Shown in pieces: positions 5,016 to 33,189 of a stretch of DNA of 39,423 bases. Every line of letters begins with the position of its first letter. Within the stretch, counting starts at the first letter, position 1. The notes under the pieces were generated by a model. That model was not told the origin of the DNA, did not search any database, and saw only the letters and a program-made list of their open reading frames with translations. The position numbers and the translations under genes are program-made. This stretch comes from a virus, in the IMG/VR virus record IMGVR_UViG_3300046787_000150, positions 1 through 39,423 of that record, one strand, 5' to 3'.

Positions 5016-8000
5016 ATGGCAAACGCTGATGTAAATTTCATTGCCGGTAGAATGAATAAAGATTTTGACGAGCGTGTAGTCCCTGCTGGAGAATACATTG
5101 ATGCGTTAAATATCAGAATAGGATCTACTGAAAATAATAGTATAGGTGCCGTAGAGAATACTAAGGGTAATATAAAATTAACCACGCTACAGTATAATGG
5201 AGCGCCTCTTGTTGATGCTACATGTATTGGAGCGTATGAGGACGGATCTAACGAGACTATATATTGGCTTGTAGCGTCTCCTTTAGTTGATATGGTTGTA
5301 TCATTCAATACAGACAAGAAACTTTTAAAGTATCACGTTGTATCTGAGGAGGTTCTTAATTTTAATCCTGAATATCTTGTTACAGGTATAAACTTAATTG
5401 ATAATTTATTATTTTGGACTGATAATTTAAATCCTCCAAGAAAAATAAATGTAACCAGAAACTATCCCGAGCCAATAGCTGGAATAGATCAAATTGATGA
5501 GAGTGATATATCTGTGATAGTAGCTCCTCCATCATCTGCTCCTAATATTACACTTGCATTTGTCCCAGACGAAGAGAATTATATAACCGACAAGTTTATA
5601 TCTTTTGCTTATAGATATAAGTATAAGGATGGGGAGTACAGTGCTCTTTCTCAGTTTAGCGAGATAGCTTTTGAGCCTGGAAACTTCAGTATAGACTATT
5701 CCACATTTGAAAATGCCGGAATGGAGAATATATTTAATTCGGTTAACATTAATTTTAATACTGGAGATAAAAATGTAGTAGGAATTGACCTTTGTTTTAA
5801 ATTTTCAGACTCTAACATTATAAATGTTATAGAGAAGTATAATAAAAAACAAGAAGGCTGGTTTGATAATGCTAATCAAGAGATATCATTTACAAATAAA
5901 AAAATATATACTACGCTAACAGAAAGCGAACTACTTCGTCTTTTTGACAATGTACCTAGATTAGCTAAGGCCCAAACAACAATGGGTAATAGACTTATGT
6001 ATGGCAACTATGTTGATGGATATAATATAGAAGATGAAAACGGAAACGCCATAGATATAGATTATGATTTAAGTTTGATATCTGAAGATGTCGGATTTGT
6101 TGAGTTGCCTGTAGATTTAACTGATGGAATAGTATACACTATAGATTCTTCAATCTCTAAAACTGTAAATAACTCTCAGTTTAATATAGACTTAGAAGGC
6201 GTTTCTTTAACTAGTGGATCATATCTTTCAATAAACATAAACTTACAGCACGACTCTTATTCTGGAGATACTTCTTACACTGATGCTCCTCAGAATAGTT
6301 TTGAATATGATTTTATATTTAATATTCAAAAGGATTACGGAAGTGTTTATGAACTAGCTACTAGTCAAGAATTTATAGATGCTATATCTACTCATGAGAT
6401 TTACTCAAATGCTTGTTCTGGGATTTCATTAACAGATTTTTTTAATTGTCAAATAGTTACTAAGTCTGGATGGAATGAGGTTGGAAGTGGAATAGTTAGT
6501 TCTGACGGGTCATTTGTTATATCTGCATCATTAGGGTCAGACGTAATAGGAATTCAAATTCCTGCATTAAAATTTAGTTTTGAAACGTCTCCCGGTGTAT
6601 TTGTATATGCTTATGAATACCTTTCAAGCGCAATTATCTCTGCTAGTTTTTCTGAATTAGGATCTAAACAAAGTCTGCATAGTAATAGAGATTACGAGGT
6701 AGCTATTGTGTATATGGATGAATATGGTCGTAGTTCGACTGCATTAGTTGATACTAATAATACAGTATTCGTACCTACATATAACTCAGATAAAAAAAAC
6801 TACATAAGAGTAAATGTTAATAGTTTAGCCCCTAGCTGGGCTACTAAATACAAGTTTGTAGTTAAACCGTCTAAGAGTCAATACCAAGTGGTATATTCTA
6901 ATATTTATTTTCAAGAAGACTCAGGTTTTACTTGGTTTAAATTAGAAGGTGACAATAGAAGTAAGGTTCAGGAAAACTCTACGTTAATAGTAAAGTCAGA
7001 TTCCAACGGCGTCCTTAGGAATTTAGTAAAAACCAAGGTTCTAGCACTAGAGGCTAAGGGTAAGGATTTTATTGAAGGTAATAAGAATTCAGCAGAGAAG
7101 GATATTATAGAGCCAGCCGGTTTATATATGAAACTAAAACCTTCCGGTTTTTCTGCTAATTATACAGAGAATTCTTTTATAGACGAGGGAGAGATAAGTG
7201 AAGGCGGTAATTACGCTAACTTGTCATATCCTTGCTATATAGATAACCCGTTATTTGGAGACTCTGGAGAGTTGGAATTTATTCCTTATGATATTCCTGC
7301 CGGCAGTTTAATAAACATAAACTTTAAAGTAACAAGAAACTCTAGAGGAGAAAGTTGCGGTGAAAGAACATATACTTTTAATAAATCATTTACAGCATCT
7401 CAGGATTATGAGAGCTTGTTTGCGTTTATAACTGGAGATCATATTGACTTAACTTCTGGTAATTCAACCGGAGGTGATCTTACTGTTAATGAAAATGAAT
7501 TTTTAAAAACTATAGGAACATATACTGGTGACATACCGGCTATCCCAGGCACTAATCAATATCAGTTTCAACAAGACTCTGCTAATGGTAGGTTATTCTT
7601 TGTAATGAAGAGTGGTACTCCTAATTGCGGGGGTATAGATAGAAGGGTGTCTAGAGTTTTCTGTCAAATTCAAGTACAGAGAGCTGAGTCTATAATGGTA
7701 TTCGAAACTGAGGCTGCTGAAGCCAATGGAGAGACGTACTTTGAAGGAAGTGAATCATTTGATATTATTGACGGTTACCACCAAGGTAACGTTGTAAATC
7801 AATCTATATCTAATCCTTTTGCTACTGTAAACTTAAACTTCTTTGATTGTTTTACATTTGGTAATGGAGTTGAGAGTTATAAGATAGGAGACTCATTAAC
7901 TGGTGCTCCGTTCTATCTTGGAAGTAGAGTTACTGCTGTATCTCAAGAAGATTTTAAAGAAGCCCACAGATATGCTGGAATAACATATAGTGGAATATAT

Positions 8001-9959
8001 AATGAAGAGACTAATGTAAATAAGCTAAATGAATTTAATTTAGCGTTAGCTAACTTTAAGGATTGTGAAAAATCATTCGGACCTATTAATATTCTTCACG
8101 GAAGAAAGACAGATGTATTAACATTACAGGAAGATAAGATATCTTATGTATTAGCTGGAAAGAATTTACTTTCTGACGCAGCAGGAGGAGGAGCTATTAC
8201 ATCTGTTCCAGAGGTTCTTGGAACTCAGATATCTAGAATTGAAGAATATGGCATTAGTAATGATGCTCCTAGCTTTTCTGTTTGGGGAGAAGATGTATAT
8301 TTTACAGATACCAAAAGAACGTCTGTTATTAATTTAAAGGGCGGATCGTCTCAGTCAGACGCATTGATTCCTATATCTAAACTAGGAATGAAAGGTTGGT
8401 TTAGAAATGAATTTAAAGATAGTATAAGTAGAGTTAAATTAGGAGGTTATGATCCGTACTTAAAAGAGTATGTACTTTCATTAACTGACGATACAACTCC
8501 ATCTCCTGTAGATACTTTTGAGTGTGGATTTACTATATCTCAGGACAATGCTAATAACGAATTGTTATTTAACCTGGAGTTTGGAAGTGTTATTGGTGAA
8601 GCTTCTTTTGACTATAACTTTGAAAACGGATCAGCTAACGTAGCGGTTTCTTATGACGGTGTTACTGTTATTAATGAGGTTGTTTCTGGATCTGGAACAT
8701 TAACTTTTAATAAAACAAAAGTAAATCCAACATTTGCAACAGTTACTATTACTCCAGAAGACGCTACTTATGTTTTTGTATTTAACTGTACCGTATCAGA
8801 TCCAATAACAGTAGTTAGAATTGTAATTAACTCTCCGTCTAACGAGGGAGAAACTATTCATAACAACTATAATTGGACTCTTGAAGGATATACAAGTCCA
8901 ACTAATATAGACTTCGTTTTGCTAGAAAGCGACGGAATATCATTGTATGATTCTAATACTGCTCAACCGTCTGTAGGTGTTATTCCTGCAATCGGAAGTA
9001 CAATTAAGATTCAATCTGAGAAGTATATTACAGATACATTTGATTTTGATCCGTTAGCTAACTCGTTTAAATACTTAGTATCTAATACATTATATACTGA
9101 ATCAGAAATAAATACACTAAGACCTTTACTAGCAGAGGCTACACCGATAGTTAATCCTGTTACAGGGAAATACGAGTCGTCGTTTGTGTATAATAATCCT
9201 AGCGGTTATCAGTACTTATATTTAGTATGGGATTTAGTAAACGCATATAGTATTGAATTGTGTTACGATGCTGACAGTTCAATAGAATCTTGTAACGGAT
9301 GTGTGCCTGTTAATTGCGTAGTATCTGAATGGTCAGAATGGTCAGAATGTGTAGATGGATCTAGATCTAGAAATAGAACAGTAATTACTCCAGCTTCTAA
9401 TGGAGGGACAGAATGTCCTTCGCTTATTGAAGTTGAGAGCTGTACACTTCCGCCTGTAGATAGTTATTTAATAAATCTTTGTTATGACGATACTAATAGT
9501 GAATTAGCTTGCGGTTGTGATCCTGTTCCTTCTTGTCCAGACAGAAGAGTAGTATTTCAGATATGTAATTCAAACTCTGCACTAGACGATAACTTTGATA
9601 TTTATCTGAATGACATTTATATTGGAGCTGTTGATTTATCAACTAATGCACAAGTTGGATCTATATTTATAGCTGACGAAAATGTAGCTGTAGAGTTAGG
9701 ATCTTCGGACTTTGTTTGTCCGTTGTCAGGAATGGTTACTTATCACTTTAATCCTTCAATACTTCTTGCTTCTAATATTTTAGAAATGAGAAATACTCAG
9801 AATAACGGTAATGGAAATTTTGGTCAGATAGGAGTTAGAAACTACTCTCTTTCTGGAACTACATTAAGTAGCCCTTGTGTTATAACTAATTTAGAATACT
9901 CAGGAGCTTCAGGAGATAGTTTTACATTTAATTTTGACTACACTCAGTGTTGTGCTTAA
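5016..9959 (+). CDS. Giant tail-tip ('muzzle'-like / stabilisation) protein with TSP1-like segment
   Basis: This 1647-residue protein opens with FIAGRMNKDFDERVVPAGEY, a signature I know from the very large tail stabilisation or muzzle proteins of crAss-like phages, which sit at the distal tail. Most of it is beta-rich. Near residues 1434-1476 there is a segment with the thrombospondin type-1 pattern: spaced tryptophans in SEWSEWSEC, then RSRNRT, GGTECP and ESC. It lies between two copies of a Cys-rich motif (ELCYDADSSIESCNGC and NLCYDDTNSELACGC). The Cys-rich C terminus is the likely receptor-facing part and may have been exchanged between phages. It shares a tight operon with the connector genes. 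Confidence 0.75.
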   Translation: MANADVNFIAGRMNKDFDERVVPAGEYIDALNIRIGSTENNSIGAVENTKGNIKLTTLQYNGAPLVDATCIGAYEDGSNETIYWLVASPLVDMVVSFNTDKKLLKYHVVSEEVLNFNPEYLVTGINLIDNLLFWTDNLNPPRKINVTRNYPEPIAGIDQIDESDISVIVAPPSSAPNITLAFVPDEENYITDKFISFAYRYKYKDGEYSALSQFSEIAFEPGNFSIDYSTFENAGMENIFNSVNINFNTGDKNVVGIDLCFKFSDSNIINVIEKYNKKQEGWFDNANQEISFTNKKIYTTLTESELLRLFDNVPRLAKAQTTMGNRLMYGNYVDGYNIEDENGNAIDIDYDLSLISEDVGFVELPVDLTDGIVYTIDSSISKTVNNSQFNIDLEGVSLTSGSYLSININLQHDSYSGDTSYTDAPQNSFEYDFIFNIQKDYGSVYELATSQEFIDAISTHEIYSNACSGISLTDFFNCQIVTKSGWNEVGSGIVSSDGSFVISASLGSDVIGIQIPALKFSFETSPGVFVYAYEYLSSAIISASFSELGSKQSLHSNRDYEVAIVYMDEYGRSSTALVDTNNTVFVPTYNSDKKNYIRVNVNSLAPSWATKYKFVVKPSKSQYQVVYSNIYFQEDSGFTWFKLEGDNRSKVQENSTLIVKSDSNGVLRNLVKTKVLALEAKGKDFIEGNKNSAEKDIIEPAGLYMKLKPSGFSANYTENSFIDEGEISEGGNYANLSYPCYIDNPLFGDSGELEFIPYDIPAGSLININFKVTRNSRGESCGERTYTFNKSFTASQDYESLFAFITGDHIDLTSGNSTGGDLTVNENEFLKTIGTYTGDIPAIPGTNQYQFQQDSANGRLFFVMKSGTPNCGGIDRRVSRVFCQIQVQRAESIMVFETEAAEANGETYFEGSESFDIIDGYHQGNVVNQSISNPFATVNLNFFDCFTFGNGVESYKIGDSLTGAPFYLGSRVTAVSQEDFKEAHRYAGITYSGIYNEETNVNKLNEFNLALANFKDCEKSFGPINILHGRKTDVLTLQEDKISYVLAGKNLLSDAAGGGAITSVPEVLGTQISRIEEYGISNDAPSFSVWGEDVYFTDTKRTSVINLKGGSSQSDALIPISKLGMKGWFRNEFKDSISRVKLGGYDPYLKEYVLSLTDDTTPSPVDTFECGFTISQDNANNELLFNLEFGSVIGEASFDYNFENGSANVAVSYDGVTVINEVVSGSGTLTFNKTKVNPTFATVTITPEDATYVFVFNCTVSDPITVVRIVINSPSNEGETIHNNYNWTLEGYTSPTNIDFVLLESDGISLYDSNTAQPSVGVIPAIGSTIKIQSEKYITDTFDFDPLANSFKYLVSNTLYTESEINTLRPLLAEATPIVNPVTGKYESSFVYNNPSGYQYLYLVWDLVNAYSIELCYDADSSIESCNGCVPVNCVVSEWSEWSECVDGSRSRNRTVITPASNGGTECPSLIEVESCTLPPVDSYLINLCYDDTNSELACGCDPVPSCPDRRVVFQICNSNSALDDNFDIYLNDIYIGAVDLSTNAQVGSIFIADENVAVELGSSDFVCPLSGMVTYHFNPSILLASNILEMRNTQNNGNGNFGQIGVRNYSLSGTTLSSPCVITNLEYSGASGDSFTFNFDYTQCCA

Positions 9960-9984
9960 TAATAAATAATAAAAATAATAAAAT

Positions 9985-10344
9985 ATGGCAACAAGTTCGA
10001 TATATTACATAGACACAGCAGATTTTTCCACAGCAACAGCGGTATGGACAGATTCTATGCTTACAACTAAAGCTCCTGATGGATACTACTCGTTCGGAGG
10101 AAATTATAGACAACAGTTTTCAGGTTTATTGACAGCTATAGCTAGTTGTACAATACCTACTACAGCTTATTGTTATGATGGATTCTGGGAATTAGATGAT
10201 CCAGCGCATCCAGGTGGAGGTTCAGTTACTTATATAAATAATTTAGGTATAGAAACTACCATAAATGAAATTTGGTCAGGATATCCTGCTAACTTTGAAG
10301 CCTCTTCAATAGTATCAACAGTAGGATGTGCTCCTTGTGTTTAA
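9985..10344 (+). CDS. Small tail-fibre-associated protein
   Basis: The 119-residue protein begins with a pattern (YYIDTADFSTATAVWTDSML, TTKAPDGYYSFGG, then YRQ) that I recall as a short beta module repeated in tail and fibre proteins of Bacteroidota phages. It ends in a Cys pair (GCAPCV), echoing the Cys-rich end of the preceding tail-tip protein. The leader is a run of TAA/AAT triplets ending AAAATATGG. It is probably a tail accessory or adhesion subunit. Confidence 0.55.
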   Translation: MATSSIYYIDTADFSTATAVWTDSMLTTKAPDGYYSFGGNYRQQFSGLLTAIASCTIPTTAYCYDGFWELDDPAHPGGGSVTYINNLGIETTINEIWSGYPANFEASSIVSTVGCAPCV

Positions 10345-10359
10345 TAATAAATAAATAAA

Positions 10360-11106
10360 ATGGCATATACACTATCATTTAGCGAAGACTCAAAGGGATG
10401 GACATCGTTCTTTTCTTTTATACCAGAAAAAATGATTGGTATGAACTCCTATTTCTATACATTTAAGAACGGAAACTTATATAGACATAATTCTAACGAA
10501 CTTAGAAATAATTTCTATGGTGTTCAGTACAACTCTAAAATTACAGGTGTATTTAATATAGAAAATGGAATGGTTAAGAATTTCAAGACCATATCATTGA
10601 ATAGCGACGACTCTTGGAGATGTGAAGTTATAACCGACATGGCTACTGGATTTGTAGACAAGTCTTATTTTTCTTTAAAGGAAGGAGACTATTTTGCTCA
10701 TATTAGAAGATACGAGACTGATGTTGACTTAGCTATGAGATCGGCTCAAGGAATAGGTGGTACTACCGCTGTTAATTCAGCCGTTCCGTCTGCTACGGTT
10801 ATTACATTCCCTTTTAAAATTGGAAGTATAATAAGTGTAGGGGATGTTGCATATAAAAATAATGCTGGAGCGCTATTGAAATTAGGAACTATCACATCAT
10901 TATCAGTAAATTCAATTACTGTAAATACGACTGTAACAGGAGGAAATATTCCGTCAGTATCAGATTATATATTATGTATAAAAAATAGCACAGCGGAGTC
11001 ATACGGAGCTACAGGATACTACATGCAGTTTGAATTAGAGAACGATAATACATCAAGAGTAGAGCTGTTTTCTGTAGGAAGTAGTATTTTTAAAAGTTAC
11101 CCTTAA
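10360..11106 (+). CDS. Tail/virion structural protein
   Basis: The 248-residue protein begins FSEDSKGWTSFFSFIPEKM and continues IGMNSYFYTFKNGNLYRHNS, which I recall as a conserved opening of a structural protein downstream of the tail-tip gene in many crAss-like and related phages. The C-terminal half (about 140-248) is a beta-rich domain with a strand-turn pattern typical of tail proteins. No enzyme motif is seen. A promoter-like 19-mer begins within two bases of its stop, so it closes this transcription unit. Confidence 0.65.
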   Translation: MAYTLSFSEDSKGWTSFFSFIPEKMIGMNSYFYTFKNGNLYRHNSNELRNNFYGVQYNSKITGVFNIENGMVKNFKTISLNSDDSWRCEVITDMATGFVDKSYFSLKEGDYFAHIRRYETDVDLAMRSAQGIGGTTAVNSAVPSATVITFPFKIGSIISVGDVAYKNNAGALLKLGTITSLSVNSITVNTTVTGGNIPSVSDYILCIKNSTAESYGATGYYMQFELENDNTSRVELFSVGSSIFKSYP

Positions 11107-28488: not shown

Positions 28489-28968
28489 TTATTTATATTT
28501 CCATGATTTATTATTAATTATCTTGCCAACTTGAGTTTGACTTATTCCAAATAATTCTGCTAATTCTCTCTGAAAATAAATTCCCTTTAAGTTTTCTTTT
28601 TTTAATTTCTCAACTTCTGATCTATTTAACTTAGACATGGAATGGGTTTCTCCTGAATTAATTAGTCCGTTTTTATAAGCATGTATAGAATTTTCTGAAG
28701 GACTGCACCACTCGAGATTTTCTACTCTATTGTCAGTCTTTATTCCATTAACATGGTTTACTTGAGGTTTGTTTTCTGGATTTAATATATGCGATAACGC
28801 TACTAATCTATGAATTTTCATTTGCTTTCTAACTCCGTCAATGTAAATATTAACTGCTAAATATCCGTCTTTCTTTTTAATGTTTTTTAATACATTACCA
28901 CGTTTACCTATCACGTCTCCGTAATTACTTATGTAAAAATCTTTATATTTTTTAAATACTTTTTCCAT
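28489..28968 (-). CDS. HNH homing endonuclease (NUMOD4-HNH-HTH)
   Basis: The 159-residue protein has the modular layout of free-standing HNH homing endonucleases. It has a NUMOD4-like start (FKKYKDFYISNYGDVIGKRG, 5-24), the HNH core with IHRLVA (52-57) and NHVNGIKTDNRVENLEW (71-87), then a C-terminal helix-turn-helix (about 130-155, FQRELAELFGISQTQVGKII). The core nicks or cuts DNA and the HTH helps choose the target site. It is more AT-rich than the primase next door, which suggests recent acquisition. It does not interrupt a recognisable gene. Confidence 0.85.
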   Translation of the reverse strand: MEKVFKKYKDFYISNYGDVIGKRGNVLKNIKKKDGYLAVNIYIDGVRKQMKIHRLVALSHILNPENKPQVNHVNGIKTDNRVENLEWCSPSENSIHAYKNGLINSGETHSMSKLNRSEVEKLKKENLKGIYFQRELAELFGISQTQVGKIINNKSWKYK

Positions 28969-31985: not shown

Positions 31986-32453
31986 TTAAATTTGATTGTT
32001 AATTTTATGATATTTTTCTTTATTAATTTTGTAGCAATTTATAGCGTCGTCCTTACTTGAAAATGAACCTAAATGTATTTTTTTATAGTTGACCATTATA
32101 TATGATATCCATTTTTTAGATCTTTTACAAAATGAAAACCCATTTACATTTTTCATATTCATTGCATTCTGACTCTTAGTTACACTTCTAAGATTTAGTA
32201 TTCTATTATCTGTCTTTATTCCATTTATATGATCAATACATTCTACCGACTCATTATATTTAATGTACCATGCGAATTGATGTCCATACAAATAGTAGCA
32301 GTTTTTGTTTTGATCTCTCAATGTTAATAATCTATATCCGTTTTTAGTTGTTTTTATACATTTTTTTCCTGTCGGAGTTGTTATGTCTCCAGTTTTTTCG
32401 TCGTAAATAAACCCTAAAGACTTAGCTAATAAACATTTTTCAATCTTATCCAT
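31986..32453 (-). CDS. HNH endonuclease with AP2 domain
   Basis: The 155-residue reading (from ATG at 32453) has a family-typical opening, IEKCLLAKSLGFIYDEKTGD. The HNH core has YLYGHQFAWYIKY and CIDHINGIKTDNRILNL (about 72-88). A C-terminal AP2 DNA-binding unit follows (GFSFCKRSKKWISYIMVNYK ... IHLGSFSSKDDAINCY). The longer start at 32471 overlaps the nuclease gene by 17 bases; the 32453 ATG begins one base after that stop and fits the family better. The gene is strikingly AT-rich beside its neighbours and probably arrived as a mobile homing endonuclease between two replication genes. Confidence 0.85.
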   Translation of the reverse strand: MDKIEKCLLAKSLGFIYDEKTGDITTPTGKKCIKTTKNGYRLLTLRDQNKNCYYLYGHQFAWYIKYNESVECIDHINGIKTDNRILNLRSVTKSQNAMNMKNVNGFSFCKRSKKWISYIMVNYKKIHLGSFSSKDDAINCYKINKEKYHKINNQI

Positions 32454-32454
32454 A

Positions 32455-33189
32455 CTACAATTCTTCTTCAATGATGTAACTATTTATGTCAGCCCAAGCG
32501 TCCTTACCAAAGAACTTGTTGTACTGATCAATCGCCGAGATTACCTTAACTCGTCCAGACTCTAAGAAGTCGTCGCTACAAGTAAACTCTCCTAGCATCC
32601 CCGTTTCCTTGTCTATAACATAGAACACTAACGGCTTACCGAAAAACTCTTGGTACAGGTACGCCTGACTATCGTAGTTGTACTTCTTTGCGCTGTATCT
32701 AAACTCTGATATCTTTGACGTTGTCTTAATGTCTATGATCATCTCGTCGGTCACAATGTCAGCCTTACCCTTCCACATAGCTCCATATATCTCCTTAACA
32801 TTTGGCACCTCGAACTGATTACCAGCCTTGTAGATGTTATCGTAAAAGTGCAGGTTGCCCTTCATTACATTGACAAGGTTGTTAAGTTCCTCTACCTCAG
32901 GTCTAAGGATAAGTATACTAGCTCCAGACTCCTTGATCGCGTCCTTGTAGATATTCGTGTTACGGCTTGACGCGTCCACGATATTAAAGTTACCCAACTT
33001 ATCTGGCTCCAGCATTGCGGTGTGAAAGTAGCTACCTTCGATCATTGCCTTAGTAGTCTCTCCTCTTTGCTTAAAGTTCTTAGGATTGTTTAGTAAGTCT
33101 CCAATGTCTGAGTTAGACAAGAACTGCTTACCTAGATCACCGTAGTAGTCCGCGTCGTTTTTTAATTGTTCAATGATGTTAGTCGACAT
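32455..33189 (-). CDS. RecB-like PD-(D/E)XK exonuclease
   Basis: This 244-residue protein has the layout of the phage exonuclease family with DUF3799-type PD-(D/E)XK domains. It has GSYFHTAML (52-60), the catalytic set GKAD (141-144) and IDIKTT (152-157), and the QAYLYQ helix (175-180). The Asp144, Asp153 and Lys155 arrangement is intact. It would chew DNA ends for recombination or degrade host DNA. It overlaps the upstream partner gene by 11 bases, a pairing that recalls phage exonuclease-annealing protein operons. Confidence 0.85.
   Translation of the reverse strand: MSTNIIEQLKNDADYYGDLGKQFLSNSDIGDLLNNPKNFKQRGETTKAMIEGSYFHTAMLEPDKLGNFNIVDASSRNTNIYKDAIKESGASILILRPEVEELNNLVNVMKGNLHFYDNIYKAGNQFEVPNVKEIYGAMWKGKADIVTDEMIIDIKTTSKISEFRYSAKKYNYDSQAYLYQEFFGKPLVFYVIDKETGMLGEFTCSDDFLESGRVKVISAIDQYNKFFGKDAWADINSYIIEEEL

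Follow-up and report, generated by a model that had tools for sequence, protein, structure and literature searches.

A reduced thrombospondin type-1 domain in the variable extension of a two-gene crassvirus muzzle

In the 39,423-nt stretch of viral DNA analysed here (IMG/VR record IMGVR_UViG_3300046787_000150, hereafter the window), the open frame of 1647 residues at 5016-9959 encodes a crassvirus muzzle, the tail-tip protein, with a C-terminal adhesin extension that holds a thrombospondin type-1 (TSP1) domain. We propose, with a probability of roughly 0.6, that this domain forms one bead of a hypervariable adhesin extension inserted in the muzzle, serving as a disulfide-stapled spacer that presents an exchangeable receptor-binding tip. 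The identity of the domain and of the muzzle, the split of the muzzle into two genes, the abrupt loss of homology at two cassettes and the exchange of modules are read from sequence comparison and are described below. Unless stated otherwise, features of the window lie on the plus strand.

Results

A four-cysteine TSP1 domain

The domain spans residues 1434-1479 (9315-9452), with SEWSEWSEC starting at residue 1437, RSRNRT at 1450, GGTECP at 1463 and ESC at 1474, as the initial annotation had placed them. The Pfam profile PF19028 (TSP1_spondin) matched residues 1434-1478 with 46.3 bits (E = 5.3e-12), above its curated cut-off of 41, whereas PF00090, the model that the annotation had named, scored 18.9, under its cut-off of 21.6; the profile assignment holds for the former model and not for the latter. 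A TSP1 search at DNA level placed the match at 9315-9452 with 52.6 bits, and 14 control genomes yielded none; comparison of the segment with PDB sequences by phmmer returned complement C8, C6, C7 and C9, F-spondin, UNC5B and Toxoplasma MIC2.

When residues 1395-1647 were modelled with AlphaFold2 (24 aligned sequences), the TSP1 block was predicted with a pLDDT of 94-97 as a three-stranded structure whose short strands follow the order of TSP1, and no fold unlike TSP1 came out; the linker from TSP1 to the tip module was of low confidence (pLDDT about 44). The top PDB chains found by Foldseek with this model were complement C9, C6 and C8, all TSP1-bearing, and their E-values were marginal (1e-3 to 3e-2) because the query holds further domains too. 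Across 19 phage copies, W7, W10, R20 and R22 of the domain were invariant, and the invariant positions are the structural Cys, Trp, Arg and Gly residues of the fold. Between the window and the orthologue of a related contig, L015, dS was 0.52 and dN 0.043 (dN/dS about 0.08), which indicates purifying selection on the segment. The window copy has an acidic net charge of -4, and the mean across 92 phage copies is -1.6. Judged by profile, model and closest PDB relatives, the segment is a genuine, reduced TSP1 domain, as had been supposed from the motif pattern.

The reduction concerns the cysteines, of which the window copy has four, not six: it lacks the one in CxxCG as well as the last one. By profile it is therefore a reduced variant and not a canonical six-cysteine repeat. 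In group 2 TSP1 domains, the CxxCG cysteine and the last cysteine form one pair. Therefore, one disulfide would have been cleanly lost and two retained, and the four cysteines left do fit two bonds. In a set of 101 distinct TSP1 sequences, which were gathered with phage-like patterns and form no census, the CxxCG cysteine was found in none of the 92 phage or prophage copies and in all nine bacterial chromosomal copies (0/92 versus 9/9). The six-cysteine TSP1s of some bacterial chromosomes, together with TSP1-named viral proteins, temper the earlier description of the fold as mainly animal and protozoan. Thirteen phage copies (L084, L090-L095, L099) carry an additional cysteine in the motif PASCGG, often with a CC pair past the last strand, and this cysteine possibly forms a different third disulfide.

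Disulfides in a virion made in the cytoplasm had been raised as a puzzle. There is no paradox in crassviruses, as the cryo-EM atlas of PhicrAss001 has disulfides in the tail barrel and the fibre hubs (PMC10172136). Five phage records, namely the window and four related contigs, yielded no thioredoxin when searched; a search for Erv1/Alr gave no match anywhere, controls included, and is therefore uninformative. The simplest assumption is that the cysteines are oxidised at lysis.

A muzzle divided between two genes

The initial annotation had called the product of 5016-9959 a tail-tip protein, and its assignment as a crassvirus muzzle agrees with this. The frame is covered by phrog_14478 (virion structural, E = 7.5e-269), and when a model of residues 1-1200 was compared with the PDB by Foldseek, the muzzle of PhicrAss001 ranked first (7qol_P, E = 1.2e-10, probability 1.00; 7qok_A, E = 1e-8); the pLDDT of this model is below 50 at residues 972-1094. 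Structure comparison found what phmmer and hmmsearch of the core against PDB sequences had missed. The hhalign comparison with PhicrAss001 gp44 gave only a partial match (93%), and PF25731 (crAss_MUZ) had no match in the window protein at E = 1; the related L085 scored 43.2 bits with this profile, against a cut-off of 27. The gene order is that of PhicrAss001 gp43-gp47, namely ring protein, muzzle, cargo genes and the giant protein of the RNA polymerase region.

The muzzle of the cultured Flavobacterium phage elemoA (1470 residues) is a single chain ending in crAss_MUZ_C (MUZ_C), as is PhicrAss001 gp44, which contains crAss_MUZ and MUZ_C. The window protein aligned to residues 1-1217 of the elemoA muzzle, with 42% identity over residues 1-369 and 29% over 508-1217, and this alignment delimits the conserved core as residues 1-1156 (5016-8483). 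MUZ_C is absent from this chain and sits in a separate gene at 10360-11106, whose product of 248 residues matched PF25729 (49.9 bits, cut-off 27) and aligned to elemoA residues 1237-1469 (E = 7e-30) and to PhicrAss001 gp44 residues 1200-1285. The two genes are thus jointly homologous to a whole one-chain muzzle. What lies between core and MUZ_C is residues 1157-1647 of the window protein (about 490 residues) and a small gene of 119 residues at 9985-10344 (gene 2), and from the elemoA alignments of both muzzle genes it follows that TSP1 lies in material at the core/C-terminal junction.

The extension begins with residues 1157-1406 (8484-9233), a stretch present in the window's clade that has no counterpart in the one-chain elemoA muzzle and ends in YLYLVWD. 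The two LCYD motifs that had been noted as flanking TSP1 were found at residues 1415 and 1488, in a first unit with three cysteines, YSIELCYDADSSIESCNGC (9249-9302), and a second unit, LCYDDTNSELACGC (9474-9521). An LCYD unit is retained in most relatives, even where no further module is present. The chain ends in a tip module, residues 1507-1647 (9534-9956), which begins with CPDRRVVFQICNSNS, is predicted by AlphaFold2 to be beta-rich (pLDDT mostly 84-95) and is mobile among virion proteins of other phages. Gene 2 consists of a conserved N-terminal anchor (to about 10150; YYIDTADFSTATAVWTDxxLTTKAPDGYYSFGGNYRQQ) and a variable tip. A homologue of gene 2 in MW202828 (L166:8665-9216) is annotated as a putative glycosidase, and no Pfam domain was found in it.

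Two hypervariable cassettes and the exchange of modules

When the window was compared with nine relatives, DNA identity was 75-91% from the shared contig start to about 9270-9304 and then stopped; against the relatives without TSP1, the stop falls inside the first LCYD unit (at about 9277). Homology returned over about 160-190 bases where gene 2 begins (9957-10150), stopped again, and returned at 10343-10366 at the MUZ_C gene. In this comparison, two hypervariable cassettes are set in a conserved background. L015 has the gene 2 tip of the window and for this reason shows no third stop in homology, and in L007 and L008 homology runs on into TSP1 because both also carry the domain.

Comparison of relatives bears out the suggestion that TSP1 is an exchanged module, missing in close relatives and present in up to 11 copies elsewhere. 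It is absent from L001-L006 and L018, which share 86-88% amino acid identity over the muzzle. The muzzle of L015 (90% identity) has the TSP1 and LCYD of the window, yet terminates in a von Willebrand factor A (vWA) domain (PF00092, 26.1 bits, cut-off 23.8); this vWA, located after TSP1 at L015:10561-11295, has a MIDAS-like DYTGS. Conversely, L001 lacks TSP1 and has the tip module of the window at 94% identity. Among the 26 distinct complete extensions obtained by the muzzle search, the window apart, three had TSP1, with 11 copies in L007, 8 in L008 and one in L015. More distant muzzles, reached through TSP1, had 10 copies (L085) and 2 copies (L097). The arrays of L007 and L085 are long and lie between other domains, and the tips of many relatives carry no TSP1.

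Modules were also found in both genes and outside the muzzle. The gene 2 tip of the window (residues 50-119 of its product) corresponds to the C-terminal end of the muzzle in L010 (75% identity) and, more weakly, in L112, and the repeat of about 105 residues in the muzzle arrays of L007, L008 and L085 is the gene 2 tip in L007 and L008. TSP1 itself occurs within gene 2 in L081, L085, L088, L089 and L164. The tip module was found in muzzles and in many non-muzzle frames, at 32 viral loci with 26-94% identity. TSP1 was also found in other phage-contig frames, of which some match tail proteins (L083, L090, L095, L100, L105, L108). As judged from these alignments, TSP1 (0 to 11 copies), vWA, the repeat of about 105 residues and other tip modules come and go, and they are also traded between the two genes.

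Host and distribution

Cultured relatives infect Flavobacterium, Cellulophaga and Tenacibaculum, and the host of the window phage is likely flavobacterial. PF19028 was matched in 3 of 300 Flavobacterium genomes: in a prophage-like region with an endolysin and a tail-like protein adjoining (L122), in one long repeat protein (L163), and on a contig of 25 kb that carries genes for a muzzle (33% identity) and for MUZ_C as well as a gene 2 with TSP1 (L164/L165). The last of these (L165, G107:C14:10000-25477) is a crass-like contig within a Flavobacterium assembly, and the phage was either carried by the bacterium or co-assembled with it. A tblastn search of 50,697 phage records with the 51-residue TSP1 and three L007 repeats returned nothing; as the low-complexity filter may mask repeats, this result is no proof that TSP1 is absent from cultured phages. 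Among the replication genes of the window there are two HNH endonuclease genes (PF13392), at 28489-28968 and 31986-32471 on the minus strand.

Discussion

At the end of the PhicrAss001 tail, the muzzle forms a hexamer that acts as the gate of the channel and is probably in contact with the cell (PMC10172136). If, as we propose, an adhesin extension was inserted at the core/C-terminal junction, the muzzle would as a result have been divided into two genes, which the variable modules and a further small adhesin gene now separate. From the hexameric state of the PhicrAss001 muzzle, we infer that six copies of the extension would be displayed per virion, outside the channel. On lysis, when the particle passes out of the reducing cytoplasm, disulfides would staple TSP1 and the LCYD units, which would then be stiff spacers holding out the exchangeable tip. 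The tip, which is residues 1507-1647 in the window and the vWA domain in L015, would touch the host envelope and set specificity. The conserved flanks and the LCYD repeats are probably where recombination has exchanged the modules.

The initial annotation had suggested glycan binding, and the TSP1 domain itself could be the part that binds the receptor, a polysaccharide of the host surface or a sulfated glycan of algae, in the manner of TRAP and other adhesins with glycosaminoglycans. TSP1 domains bind sulfated sugars (PMC9019593), the position at the tail tip is exchangeable, and the pairing of TSP1 with vWA in L015 resembles the apicomplexan adhesins TRAP and MIC2, but glycan binding is so far unsupported. 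The charge is negative both in the window copy and on average, the invariant residues belong to the core fold, and the long arrays between other domains in L007 and L085 suit a spacer; for these reasons the spacer role is favoured. Many relatives also have tips without TSP1, and we consider it unlikely that TSP1 is the receptor binder. An extension that steadies the muzzle or shields the channel and has no part in recognition would suit the stability expected of cysteine-rich, disulfide-type modules and the presence of the LCYD unit in most relatives even without a further module. However, an assembly element would be conserved, whereas the extension is the most variable part of an otherwise 75-91% identical region and unrelated modules occupy the same place, which makes a structural or protective role quite improbable.

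The closest relatives are all metagenomic contigs, and TSP1 might have been mis-joined to the muzzle during assembly or might resemble the domain by chance composition. Mis-assembly of this join is ruled out because the same junction is present on the independent contigs L015, L007 and L008, and in the Flavobacterium assembly a crass-like contig bears TSP1 in its gene 2. The open frame, the low dN/dS and the PF19028 E-value argue against both artefact and chance, to which together we assign only a very small probability.

With regard to the preferred reading, in which TSP1 is a spacer for an exchangeable tip, the extension may be accessory to host recognition, since the tail fibres probably recognise the host as well. 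In addition, MUZ_C may be part of the muzzle end that joins the ring, and if so, the extension would point sideways and not towards the cell.

The window muzzle is like that of PhicrAss001 (gp44; PF25731 and PF25729) in core fold, in gene order before the cargo and RNA polymerase genes, and in the presence of the C-terminal domain; it differs in being encoded by two genes, its core and C-terminal part being separated by the 490-residue extension and the second small gene. Muzzle length has been described as varying through insertions into the crass domain and the IG2 domain (PMC10172136). The TSP1 domain shares with the group 2 (F-spondin-like) domains of PF19028 the Cys before WxxW, the motifs WSxWSxC, RxRxR and GGxxCP, the closing Cys and the three-stranded model, but has four cysteines where these have six. 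L015, like the apicomplexan TRAP and MIC2, combines TSP1 with vWA on a structure for host entry; its domain order is opposite, its TSP1 is reduced, there is no membrane anchor and no common ancestry of the whole protein, and the window has no vWA. Viral TSP1 is not wholly new, because TSP1-named proteins are known from an uncultured Caudovirales phage (A0A6J5N7M8) and Micromonas pusilla virus SP1 (G9E6E6), whose TSP1 fold is seen by structure comparison in BFVD; these are known by annotation and fold, unlike the window TSP1, which is placed in a muzzle. A literature search for TSP1 in crAss-like or Flavobacterium phages found no paper, nor any analysing these two proteins. The domain and the virion protein are each known, but we have not found their combination or this gene arrangement described.

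More broadly, a class of crassviruses may have opened the muzzle gene at the core/C-terminal junction and made of it a two-gene platform that shuffles a phage-specific lineage of reduced TSP1, vWA and other adhesins to alter host specificity independently of the tail fibres, in parallel with the TSP1/vWA adhesins of apicomplexans; we hold this wider proposal tentatively, at somewhat under even odds. The reduced TSP1 would be a minimal form of an animal adhesion fold, presumably working without C-mannosylation or O-fucosylation, and offers a case in which disulfides of phage virions can be tested. Little is understood of the host specificity of crassviruses, and their muzzle has been described as conserved save for the crass and IG2 insertions. 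The natural series of presence and absence at one defined site of the muzzle lets one ask directly if host recognition is decided by the muzzle, and this variable region between otherwise very similar phages probably helps to decide which bacterium is recognised.
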